This document shows positions 2,437 to 48,188 of a stretch of DNA of 64,000 nt, piece after piece (the first letter of the stretch is position 1; every line of letters begins with the position of its first letter). The notes under the pieces were generated by a model. It was not told the origin of the DNA and did no database searches. It saw only the letters and a list, made by a program, of their open reading frames with translations. The position numbers and the translations under genes were made by a program. Source of the DNA: Hexactinellida sp. DTS-2022 (Eukaryota; Porifera; Hexactinellida); assembly GCA_028753945.1 (NCBI GenBank), contig JAPNXP010000008.1:3596001-3660000 (forward strand). The letters are read 5' to 3'.

Positions 2437-4011
2437 TTAGTTCTCGGTGGATATAGTTGAGTGGCTGACGGGTTTCCTCTTGAGGGAGGATCTGACTTTT
2501 GGCAGCAGACAGCAGGAGGACACGCAGGAGGCGAGCAGACAGAAGAGACCGGCCGACAGGACGCAGAGAGATATGCTGAACACCAGGTCCATCAAATCCA
2601 GCGTAGAACCGAGCTGCGAATAGAGCTCCTGTGAGAGCGTCACCGACTCGTCCGAGTAGAGCACAGGCATGTACAGGAGCGGGGGAATATCGCTGAAGTA
2701 TACGACTTCGGCTCGCTGGAGCTTGAAGTTAATCTGCACTCGGTTGTGCACGGACACCGTGGCCCCAGTGGTGGGCTCTATGTCCACGAACAGGTCGTGT
2801 CGGTCCCGGTCGGGAGAGAGCCCGGACACATTCAGCAGGAGGGCGGGGTCTCCGTCCAGGAAGTGCGGCTTAGACGCGTACGCCGGGGACCCCGGCAGGA
2901 TGCTGGAGTTCCCAACGTAGAAGAGCCCCCGGGCGCAGGCCTGGTACCAGCGCGCGTTGGGCGGATACGAGCTGGAGTTAAGCAGGAACTCCGCGGGGAG
3001 CCCGTAGCGGAGCGTGTCTATGCCCCTGTGGTCCACGTGCGAGTTCTTGTACACCAGGTCTATAGAGCGCATCGCGTCGTCCACGAAGAATGTAAGTCTG
3101 TCATTCGAGTTGAGAAAGGGGTGGAAGAAGAACCCCTCGGTCCCATTGACCATGTCTGCGTACTGGTCCCCCCAGATGTCCAGCCGTCTCTGTCCGTCCC
3201 ACTGCAGGAACTGTCCCACCAGCCGAGACTCGCAGACGCCGGTGTTAACGATGCTAGCCAGCTGGTCGCCCGCGGTATCATTAACGAAAATACTGAAGTT
3301 CTGCTCCCTGGGGAAGAGATACAGTTTCTTCAGCTCCTGTATGAACAGGTCCTCGTAGCCCCAGATCAGCTGACTCACCGTGAGGGTCTTGTACAGACTG
3401 GAGTTGGTCTCTAAGACGATGGAGTTAAGAGCTGCGCGAAGGAACGCAGAATCAGTGGCCACGTGGACAGCGGCTGCCAGCGGGAGATTCAGCGTCTGTA
3501 TGACGTCATCTTCTCGCAGGCTCATACTCGTAGCTTCTCTGTCGAATACGAATATTTTCCGTTGCGTGTAAACCACGTGACAGCTGTCCTCGGATACGCC
3601 CACCACTGTTTTGTTCCTGTACTCCCGGTAGCGGTAGGGCCCGATCTCAGTCAGATTGGGAGCCACGCCTAGAGCCAGCTCGTCGGGGTTGGTCCAGTTG
3701 AAAATATAGAAATCCTTGTATATCTGAGCGTCAGGCGCTAACCACTGTTCGTACAGGATAGTCCCGTTCTGTAGCGACATCTCGTGAGTCACTTTTCCAT
3801 GCACGTTCTTATACGTAGCGAACCACAGCACGCCCCCGGACACGCTGAGCACAAGGCTGGCGCTGAAGAGAGACAGCACGAATAGCAGCACGTAGATAAA
3901 CCTATGCGACGGATTTAGGAACTTCTTTGGTGTTATTACTTCGCCTTTGATAAGCAAAGTATCTTCACTCAAGGAATCTATACCATTTTGTGCCATGCGG
4001 GTTTGCGACAT
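2437..4011 (-). CDS. CD36/SCARB/LIMP-2 family scavenger receptor
   Basis: An intronless 524-residue protein with the full CD36 layout. A short cytoplasmic N-terminus is followed by a transmembrane segment (about 37-62), a large N-glycosylation-rich ectodomain, a second transmembrane helix (about 470-500) and a short Cys- and Lys-rich tail. The family signature after the first helix is clear: YIFNWTNPDEL followed by EIGPYRYREYR. The ectodomain has several Cys and many N-x-S/T sites. Family members bind lipoproteins, modified lipids or microbial ligands at the plasma membrane, or carry enzymes to lysosomes. Which role applies cannot be read from sequence. Length fits the family (about 470-530). 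Confidence 0.93.
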   Translation of the reverse strand: MSQTRMAQNGIDSLSEDTLLIKGEVITPKKFLNPSHRFIYVLLFVLSLFSASLVLSVSGGVLWFATYKNVHGKVTHEMSLQNGTILYEQWLAPDAQIYKDFYIFNWTNPDELALGVAPNLTEIGPYRYREYRNKTVVGVSEDSCHVVYTQRKIFVFDREATSMSLREDDVIQTLNLPLAAAVHVATDSAFLRAALNSIVLETNSSLYKTLTVSQLIWGYEDLFIQELKKLYLFPREQNFSIFVNDTAGDQLASIVNTGVCESRLVGQFLQWDGQRRLDIWGDQYADMVNGTEGFFFHPFLNSNDRLTFFVDDAMRSIDLVYKNSHVDHRGIDTLRYGLPAEFLLNSSSYPPNARWYQACARGLFYVGNSSILPGSPAYASKPHFLDGDPALLLNVSGLSPDRDRHDLFVDIEPTTGATVSVHNRVQINFKLQRAEVVYFSDIPPLLYMPVLYSDESVTLSQELYSQLGSTLDLMDLVFSISLCVLSAGLFCLLASCVSSCCLLPKVRSSLKRKPVSHSTISTEN

Positions 4012-45866: not shown

Positions 45867-46988
45867 TTATTTAGATAGTTGCATGACGCTCAATGCTGAT
45901 AAAGGTAAGATAGGTTTCCCTGACTCCAACTGCCTAATCATAGGAACAATATCTATGTTCCTTAAGCGGAGAGAACACAGCTCTTCCACAGTCACCCAGC
46001 AGGCCCCTGCACTTTCATAATCGGGAATACTCTTCAGCTCTTGTCTCTCATCCAGCATTCGTGCTACGAAGTACACACACACCTCCATCCTGGGTCCCCT
46101 GCCGTGTATGTGTGTGGGGAAGTGGTGTATGGCCAGTAGTCCCGTGAGTTCTATGTCCACCCCTGCCTCCTCCCTAGCCTCCCGTACCGCAGCCGTCTGG
46201 AAGGTCTCGTGTCTGTCCACGCGGCCCGCGGGGTACCAATAGCCCTGTCCCAGGAACTCCTGCACCACCAGGTACTTGTTGTCCGACCGCCTCACGATAG
46301 AGAATGCGAACCCGTCGAACTGTATTTCCGGCGAGAGAGAGTCTGCCACCACCTCTCCGCGCTTGGCCGGGCCGTGGTGATCATGCAGGTGCACTGCAAT
46401 GTTCTGATGCCACTTCTTACACATGGGACACTTTCCCGACATATTCTGGTTGATGACGTGGTATAGCGGGAAGTGGCTCCACAGGTCGTCCTCCCTGAGT
46501 CCGCCGAGTCCGCACTCGGGACAGACCAGTCGGGAGCCGGGCCCCCGTCGGGAGCGGAGGTAGGAGAGCACCTGCTCCAGGCACCGCGCGCTCTGGGCCG
46601 CAGAGCTGCTCACCATGTTAGCCCCCGCGTCCGCCAGCGCCAGTCGCTCCCGCGCGCTCTCCGCCAGCCGCGAGTCCAGCAGACACACGAAGGTGGCGGA
46701 GAGACGCGCGCGGCGCTCGGAGAGGAAGGGGAGCAGCTGGGCGCCTCTGGTGACGTCACAGGGCCCGATGAGCAGCAGCAGCAGCAGCTCCGATCCCGGT
46801 CTGCCCGCTATGCTGTCCAGTACCCTCTCCAGCTCTCCCACGCCCCCTGAGGCCCCCACCGCGTGCCTCTCCAGCTCCGAGTGTCTGTCCAGAGCCGTGG
46901 CCACCTCTCCCAGCTGCTCGTCAGGCCAGCAGACGACCGCGTGGCACCGGGGCAACTGGGGCTCTGAGGAACTAGACTTTGTAGCCAT
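45867..46988 (-). CDS. Nudix hydrolase with zinc-finger and receiver-like N-terminus, copy A
   Basis: An intronless 373-residue protein. Residues 1-130 have alternating hydrophobic strands (CHAVVCWPDEQ, LLLLLLIGPCD, SATFVCLLDS) like a Rossmann or receiver-type fold, an inference only. A CPECGLGGLREDDLWSHFPL segment with a later His (about 156-177) and CPMCKKWHQNIAVHLHDHH look like paired zinc fingers. The Nudix box is intact: GRVDRHETFQTAAVREAREE followed by AGVD, about residue 267. Nudix enzymes hydrolyse nucleoside diphosphates linked to another group; the substrate is unknown. Residues 1-177 are identical to copy B; the rest is only about half identical. The two start codons lie about 100 bp apart on opposite strands. 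Confidence 0.88.
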   Translation of the reverse strand: MATKSSSSEPQLPRCHAVVCWPDEQLGEVATALDRHSELERHAVGASGGVGELERVLDSIAGRPGSELLLLLLIGPCDVTRGAQLLPFLSERRARLSATFVCLLDSRLAESARERLALADAGANMVSSSAAQSARCLEQVLSYLRSRRGPGSRLVCPECGLGGLREDDLWSHFPLYHVINQNMSGKCPMCKKWHQNIAVHLHDHHGPAKRGEVVADSLSPEIQFDGFAFSIVRRSDNKYLVVQEFLGQGYWYPAGRVDRHETFQTAAVREAREEAGVDIELTGLLAIHHFPTHIHGRGPRMEVCVYFVARMLDERQELKSIPDYESAGACWVTVEELCSLRLRNIDIVPMIRQLESGKPILPLSALSVMQLSK

Positions 46989-47618
46989 AATGTTATTCAG
47001 TTCAATATAGAATTGTGCCTAATAGCTGAAACAGTCTATTATAAGTATTACAGTCTATTCGCTACGGACCTAAACATTGATAACATTATGGCTACAAAGT
47101 CTAGTTCCTCAGAGCCCCAGTTGCCCCGGTGCCACGCGGTCGTCTGCTGGCCTGACGAGCAGCTGGGAGAGGTGGCCACGGCTCTGGACAGACACTCGGA
47201 GCTGGAGAGGCACGCGGTGGGGGCCTCAGGGGGCGTGGGAGAGCTGGAGAGGGTACTGGACAGCATAGCGGGCAGACCGGGATCGGAGCTGCTGCTGCTG
47301 CTGCTCATCGGGCCCTGTGACGTCACCAGAGGCGCCCAGCTGCTCCCCTTCCTCTCCGAGCGCCGCGCGCGTCTCTCCGCCACCTTCGTGTGTCTGCTGG
47401 ACTCGCGGCTGGCGGAGAGCGCGCGGGAGCGACTGGCGCTGGCGGACGCGGGGGCTAACATGGTGAGCAGCTCTGCGGCCCAGAGCGCGCGGTGCCTGGA
47501 GCAGGTGCTCTCCTACCTCCGCTCCCGACGGGGGCCCGGCTCCCGACTGGTCTGTCCCGAGTGCGGACTCGGCGGACTCAGGGAGGACGACCTGTGGAGC
47601 CACTTCCCGCTATACCAC
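46458..47618. repeat. Large palindrome: two 539-bp inverted arms around an 83-bp spacer
   Basis: The left arm 46458-46996 and right arm 47080-47618 are inverted copies, with no difference found where I compared them. Their translations are identical in the coding frame and in two antisense frames, so the arms must be identical or nearly so at base level. Each arm starts 8 bp before a start codon and ends after codon 177. Outside the arms similarity drops at once to diverged paralogue level. The 83-bp centre must contain a shared promoter. Confidence 0.93.
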
Positions 47619-48188
47619 ATTAACTCTCCGGCTAAGCGCGTGAAATGTCCGATCTGCTCCGAGTCCGTTCCTAACCCGGGCATGCATATACACGAGAGCC
47701 ACGGGCCCGAAGTAAGACGAACAGTGGCACTCTCTGCTAAACAGAAAATTGAGAAGTTCTCTGGGTTTTCTTTTGTTGTTGTCCAGAGAGAGAAAGACAA
47801 CAAGTTCTTGGTCGTTCAGGAATTCGGACAGCTTGGCTACTGGCTGCCGGCTGGGCGCGTGGACGCCAATGAGAGCTTCCAGAGTGCGGCTATTCGCGAG
47901 GTCAGAGAGGAGGTTGGGGTTGACGTTAAGCTGAAGGGAATACTCGGGATATCACACGGACGGTACCATGAGGGGGGCATGCGGATGGAAGTGGTGTTCT
48001 TCGCTACGCCGGCGATTACGCACCGAGAGCAGCTGCCTAAGACAACGCCCGACTACGAGAGTGCTGGGGCCTGCTGGGTGACGTATGAAGATCTGTTAGG
48101 TGTGAGGGTGAGATCAAACAGTGTTAAGCACTGGGTTAAACATGTGCTAGATGGCCATGCAGTGTACCCTCTCTCCTTCTTAATGTGA
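47088..48188 (+). CDS. Nudix hydrolase with zinc-finger and receiver-like N-terminus, copy B
   Basis: An intronless 366-residue protein, mirror partner of copy A. I chose the ATG at 47088 because it corresponds exactly to the start of copy A; an upstream in-frame ATG (47013) lies in the unique spacer. The second zinc-finger-like region reads CPICSESVPNPGMHIHESH. The Nudix box is GRVDANESFQSAAIREVREE followed by VGVD. The YESAGACWVT motif near the C-terminus is kept in both copies. Differences cluster in the catalytic half, so the pair could share regulation and recognition but differ in substrate. Confidence 0.88.
   Translation: MATKSSSSEPQLPRCHAVVCWPDEQLGEVATALDRHSELERHAVGASGGVGELERVLDSIAGRPGSELLLLLLIGPCDVTRGAQLLPFLSERRARLSATFVCLLDSRLAESARERLALADAGANMVSSSAAQSARCLEQVLSYLRSRRGPGSRLVCPECGLGGLREDDLWSHFPLYHINSPAKRVKCPICSESVPNPGMHIHESHGPEVRRTVALSAKQKIEKFSGFSFVVVQREKDNKFLVVQEFGQLGYWLPAGRVDANESFQSAAIREVREEVGVDVKLKGILGISHGRYHEGGMRMEVVFFATPAITHREQLPKTTPDYESAGACWVTYEDLLGVRVRSNSVKHWVKHVLDGHAVYPLSFLM

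Follow-up and report, generated by a model that had tools for sequence, protein, structure and literature searches.

Gene conversion between inverted neighbouring paralogues is a known phenomenon. The closest precedent for the locus analysed here, a head-to-head pair of genes encoding zinc fingers and a Nudix domain, is the mammalian CYP1A1/CYP1A2 pair, which likewise consists of old head-to-head paralogues with partial conversion. As described in the report on this pair (PMC3199271), the duplication dates back more than 300 million years, conversion affected the first 500 bp of exon 2 and also exon 5 while the other exons diverged, and the last event in simian primates predates the split between Catarrhini and Platyrrhini; selection on substrate specificity is given there as a force that may keep the other exons apart. 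The CYP1A genes carry introns and their conversion was found by comparing species, whereas the Nudix pair is apparently intronless and is seen in one assembly as a perfect 539-bp repeat. The hsp16-1/hsp16-48 modules of C. elegans resemble the Nudix pair as inverted neighbouring paralogues whose identity is attributed to gene conversion; they are reported to be 100% alike with diverged flanks, and hsp70-7/hsp70-8 is another adjacent inverted pair (PMC3966223). In hsp16, however, the identical unit is the whole 1.9-kb two-gene module, whereas in the Nudix pair identity ends within the coding sequence.

Copying between inverted arms inside coding DNA, as proposed below for the Nudix pair, has been described for yeast genes, in which template switching between the arms turns imperfect inverted repeats into perfect ones; the arms of the yeast example are 8 to 16 bp long, whereas the 539 bp found here are far longer and more like a recombinational tract (PMC8604942). 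The arms of the human Y palindrome P6 are reported to be nearly identical through GC-biased conversion with a mean tract of 2068 bp, but P6 is a large palindrome whose conversion was shown in a population sample, in contrast to the single assembly available here (PMC3723533). Perfect inverted repeats of up to 284 bp in coding sequence are described for nematomorph mitochondrial genes (PMC6649704); these palindromes are mitochondrial and embedded within genes, whereas the Nudix palindrome is formed by two homologous genes facing each other. The head-to-head AIG1-like pairs of plants were set aside as a precedent, because the inverted repeats there are proposed to create duplicates and not to keep them alike (PMC12845241). 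Among the literature matches listed, judged by title and the start of the abstract, there was no zinc-finger/Nudix pair of this type, which is weak evidence of absence. The features particular to the Nudix pair are its mismatch-free arms, the small distance between them and a divergence that is saturated beyond the break.

The analysed stretch of 64,000 nucleotides, hereafter the window (C17:3596001-3660000), is part of C17, a contig of chromosome size (4.9 Mb) in an assembly of 112,398,167 bp in 18 contigs of 2.6 to 17.6 Mb. When 10 ORFs of the window were searched against Pfam (threshold 0.001), matches were obtained for six (CD36; ANKRD13_C; zf-MIZ; DUSP plus Ubiquitin_3; RNase_T; NHL repeats), a set in keeping with an animal genome, possibly that of a sponge. 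The two ORFs of interest are divergent and both intact (Table 1). Their PF00293 scores were 60.9 and 59.5 bits against a curated cut-off of 21.1. The Nudix box has the consensus GX5EX7REUXEEXGU, and the pattern G.{5}E.{7}RE.{2}EE.G[ILVA] was present in both proteins, the left one having Ala at the first U. With a domain above the cut-off and an intact box, both genes are predicted to encode Nudix hydrolases, and the best solved relative of the right protein by sequence was the MutT/NUDIX protein 3id9_A (2.4e-06). The zinc-finger pair matched zf-Di19 (PF05605) with 27.5 bits in the left and 26.9 bits in the right protein, compared with a curated cut-off of 27.5; in the genome search with this family, the right gene scored 31.5 bits and the left gene was not among the 21 places listed.

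Table 1. Features of the Nudix gene pair (positions in the window).
Feature	Position	Strand	Basis or composition
Left gene, 373-aa ORF: alpha/beta-like N-half, two zinc fingers, Nudix	45867..46988	-	
Nudix domain, left gene; Nudix box residues 255-277	45954..46301	-	PF00293, 1.7e-16
Zinc finger 2, left gene, diverged part	46374..46430	-	pattern, Pfam
Zinc finger 1, left gene (C156-H177), last element within the identical part	46458..46523	-	pattern; Pfam zf-Di19 154-206
Left arm, perfect 539-bp inverted repeat (codons 1-177 + 8-nt leader)	46458..46996	-	GC 68.6%
AT-rich spacer between the genes (83 bp, 34% GC)	46997..47079	.	sequence
Right arm, perfect 539-bp inverted repeat	47080..47618	+	GC 68.6%
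Right gene, 366-aa ORF, architecture as left gene	47088..48188	+	
Zinc finger 1, right gene (C156-H177), last element within the identical part	47553..47618	+	pattern; Pfam zf-Di19 154-206
Zinc finger 2, right gene, diverged part	47646..47702	+	pattern, Pfam
Nudix domain, right gene; Nudix box residues 256-278	47772..48098	+	PF00293, 4.4e-16

A base-by-base comparison of the arms revealed exact reverse complements (539/539 bases), in agreement with the perfect palindrome described in the initial annotation. Each arm consists of the 531 nt (177 codons) from the ATG and an 8-nt leader, all identical between the genes, so the shared first 177 codons and leader claimed there were likewise recovered. 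The two ATGs (46988 on the minus strand and 47088 on the plus strand) are 99 bp apart, and in both arms the eight leader bases are followed directly by the ATG, with A at -3 and G at +4. That identity extends to silent sites, as had also been stated, was borne out by the fourfold sites of the N-half, which were identical at 111/111 positions. The 95% upper bound on arm divergence was 0.55%, or 2.7% at fourfold sites. A chance origin of the N-half identity was ruled out, as the probability of 531 consecutive matches at the match rate of the C-halves is about 10^-139. No further DNA copy of the arms beyond these two was detected in the whole 112-Mb assembly (simple or very common words being skipped), and the N-half protein was found at the two palindrome genes with no third place in the assembly. 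Open antisense frames run through the arms (window positions 46615-47010, 131 aa, and 47048-47461, 137 aa), probably as a by-product of GC-rich codon use.

After codon 177, the two proteins diverge abruptly. Only 87 of 188 aligned residues were identical (46%; 86 in a slightly different alignment); the abruptness noted earlier was therefore evident, and the figure of about half turned out slightly too high. Codons 178-185 shared no residue in the alignment. At the nucleotide level, 307/561 aligned positions of the C-halves matched (55%), with a longest exact run of 17 nt, and 16 of the 36 comparable fourfold sites were identical. Synonymous divergence was saturated (dS 2.64 by NG86 and 1.80 by LWL85; dN 0.51 and 0.50), and the shared degenerate residues used the same codon in 40/83 cases, near the chance level of 35.9 expected from codon usage. 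Perfect arms beside saturated C-halves with near-chance codon sharing indicate that the duplication is old and the identity of the N-halves young. Both features looked for in inter-paralogue conversion were found, namely identity within the tract far above that of the remainder, silent sites included, and a duplication older than the identical tract (C-half dS 1.8-2.6).

The identity breaks off in frame and in register, without an indel, between the two fingers of the zf-Di19-like pair. As the break is in register between fingers common to both, both genes probably inherited the whole architecture. A zf-Di19-like match runs across the break in the left as well as the right protein, so that the N-half can be counted as part of each gene. 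The annotation had further suggested a common sensor paired with two different catalytic ends, and this goes beyond the data: identity stops between the two zinc fingers and not at a sensor/enzyme border, and both ends are Nudix. For a receiver (CheY-like) assignment of the N-half, we looked for a recognisable family profile or a confident fold match. No Pfam family reached the cut-off for the N-half, and the Pfam, NCBIfam and fold searches returned just a generic alternating alpha/beta arrangement, which was also the arrangement in a pair of low-confidence AlphaFold models (pLDDT 42.3 and 57.4).

We then considered relatives of the C-halves. The best other genomic match of the right C-half was the left C-half (1.7e-47), and the next Nudix gene followed at 0.0066; judged by these matches, the two C-halves are by far each other's closest relatives in the assembly. 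A genome search with the Nudix family gave 17 places, both palindrome genes included. With full-protein patterns (from the N-half), 67 stretches of viral contigs and 61 stretches of prokaryote genome contigs were matched, none of which was confirmed. With C-half patterns, none of 38 matched stretches of viral contigs was confirmed, while one of 26 stretches of genome contigs was, in a Patescibacteria MAG (query residues 50-108, 43%).

As a control sample, we used 20 stretches of 10 kb together with the window (264 kb). Exact inverted arms of at least 200 bp within 3 kb occurred twice in this sample, once as the Nudix palindrome and once in L029 (G000:C17:1000001-1010000), in which exact 457-bp arms (627-1083 and 2720-3176) are separated by a spacer of 1636 bp. 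With this 457-bp repeat in the sample, the Nudix locus is not alone in having a long inverted repeat. At 33% GC the L029 repeat is AT-rich, and no stop-free frame across the whole element exceeds 111 codons; within the 264-kb sample, the Nudix palindrome is set apart by being coding and GC-rich. The L029 repeat is preceded by GACAATTCGTGACAGA-type short repeats and resembles a foldback element. An inverted minisatellite was also observed in L015 (716-2065 of G000:C3:1000001-1010000), where GGTGGAAAAT-like units face their own reverse complement around a short core, with exact arms of up to 181 bp.

The base composition of the arms was analysed in the same sample. GC3 was 0.84 in the N-half compared with 0.65 and 0.61 in the C-halves, and GC was raised at all three codon positions. 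Upon calculating the GC contrast (GC3 of the first 177 codons minus that of the rest) for the 35 ORFs of at least 250 aa in the 264 kb, unfiltered for true genes, we found the two Nudix genes in first and second place (+0.23 and +0.19), a third ORF also having +0.19 when rounded to two digits; because both genes share one N-half, the two ranks count as one observation. When the maximum GC3 over 177 codons was compared among the 47 ORFs of at least 177 aa, the two genes were third and fourth, with two ORFs above them and two others tied with the right gene in fourth place, indicating that the absolute GC level is unexceptional and only the within-gene contrast exceptional. CpG-island character as a cause of the arm GC was rejected, as the observed/expected CpG ratio of the arms (0.79) gave no distinct signal relative to the C-halves (0.66 and 0.89), the ratio of the window being 0.83.

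We consider it highly probable (about 0.85) that an ancient head-to-head inverted duplication was followed by recent homogenisation of the facing N-halves through non-reciprocal copying. That an inverted duplication is old and that its 5' halves were converted had been proposed from the outset, and this is the best-supported reading given the arms, the dS values and the kinship of the C-halves; the wording 'kept identical', which implies recurrence, does not hold up as well, since one recent event fits equally, a suggestive GC signal aside. One apparently intronless gene with an N-half, two zinc fingers and a Nudix domain would have been duplicated in inverted orientation long ago, giving rise to head-to-head paralogues, and recently one N-half arm would have been copied non-reciprocally onto the other across the 83 bp between them. 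The route may have been recombinational gene conversion, or polymerase template switching on a hairpin or cruciform, with breaks or stalled forks at the inverted repeat presumably being repaired from the other arm. The copied tract would comprise the eight bases preceding the ATG and the first 177 codons. It would have ended where divergence between the partners no longer allowed pairing, at the stretch of codons 178-185 without a shared residue, leaving the Nudix halves to diverge, probably towards different nucleotide substrates. The formation of hairpins or cruciforms and the risk of breakage are described as greater for longer and more similar arms and for shorter spacers, and for inverted Alu repeats with a 52-bp spacer the same source reports that frequent fork stalling was limited to E. 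coli and was not observed in eukaryotic cells (PMC7999016). Replication-linked hairpins may thus be infrequent at 83 bp, which would make recombinational conversion the likelier route. The one assembly that forms the evidence base shows the perfect arms, the saturated C-halves and the in-register architecture, and yielded no further copy, whereas the mechanism of copying, its recency relative to alleles, any repetition of it, the lack of introns and the biochemical roles are inferences.

Perfect identity with sharp ends would also be left by a recent partial inverted duplication, in which a zinc-finger/Nudix gene next door that lacked this N-half received an inverted copy of the left N-half and leader, creating a new fusion, and an incomplete recent duplication can mimic conversion, as is cautioned in PMC3966223. 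Such a fusion, however, must hit the homologous codon by chance, with a junction in frame, in register and free of indels inside the zf-Di19 match of both proteins, whereas the C-halves are already inverted partners and mutual closest genomic relatives. The in-register finger pair therefore disfavours a mimic of this kind, which we regard as improbable. Because minor differences between closely similar repeats can be lost in polishing, an assembly artefact could have made similar N-halves equal or built in a foldback read. Typical long reads far exceed the 1161-bp unit, a foldback would have mirrored the flanks as well, which here are different, intact ORF ends, and polishing could presumably remove a difference of a few percent but not saturated divergence; an artefact is accordingly very unlikely. 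The geometry would permit the structure itself to be the function, with read-through over both arms yielding a 539-bp hairpin RNA as a source for small-RNA silencing. Transcripts that leave the spacer in opposite directions would each lack one of the arms, though, and arm identity is expected from conversion anyway, so that we give this idea almost no weight.

A form of the main explanation, whose odds are contained in it, is recurrent GC-biased conversion, in which the arms are re-copied again and again and the boundary is set by selection that favours distinct Nudix ends. The raised GC of the N-half at every codon position and the top GC3 contrast among the 35 ORFs agree with it, as do GC-biased arm-to-arm conversion in palindrome P6 (PMC3723533) and the selection that may have kept the unconverted CYP1A1/2 exons apart (PMC3199271). 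A one-time event, however, yields identical arms too, the GC signal is a single data point, GC-rich 177-codon stretches are present in other ORFs, and a 5' GC gradient would mimic the N-half signal. The GC enrichment hints at repeated GC-biased conversion without proving it, and we rate recurrence at somewhat below an even chance. More tentatively still, and with doubt outweighing belief, the locus may be pictured as a self-homogenising two-headed gene, in which the palindrome drives continual GC-biased re-copying of the N-module, selection pins the boundary at the end of zinc finger 1, and the shared domain evolves like a single locus in the service of two independently evolving Nudix enzymes.

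Taking duplication followed by conversion as the preferred reading, the Nudix pair illustrates partial conversion between inverted neighbours with unusual clarity in a natural setting, with zero differences before one codon, saturated divergence after it and a spacer of 83 bp. If the copying recurs, the pair would offer a compact test of how sequence divergence and selection set the limits of conversion tracts, and also of the tolerance of a genome for a coding palindrome of 539 bp. The pair further cautions that, in families of this kind, the two halves of a protein can yield conflicting gene trees.

The spacer presumably holds the promoters of both genes. Its local self-complement score was 15, against a shuffle mean of 12.1; as this is below the 95th percentile of 18, the spacer is without hidden symmetry. 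It contains a direct repeat of ACAGTCTATT, present twice and 9 bp apart, and these copies are possibly promoter elements.

Elsewhere on C17, about 420 kb past the end of the window, a zf-Di19-like cluster was observed (G000:C17:4078996-4095275), which accounts for 8 of the 21 places listed in the genome search, most of them below the cut-off, and is possibly a zinc-finger gene family. On contig C5 (G000:C5:4862283-4863311), two Nudix domains share one strand with about 360 bp between them; they may form a direct tandem pair, which could serve as a useful same-orientation control for conversion.
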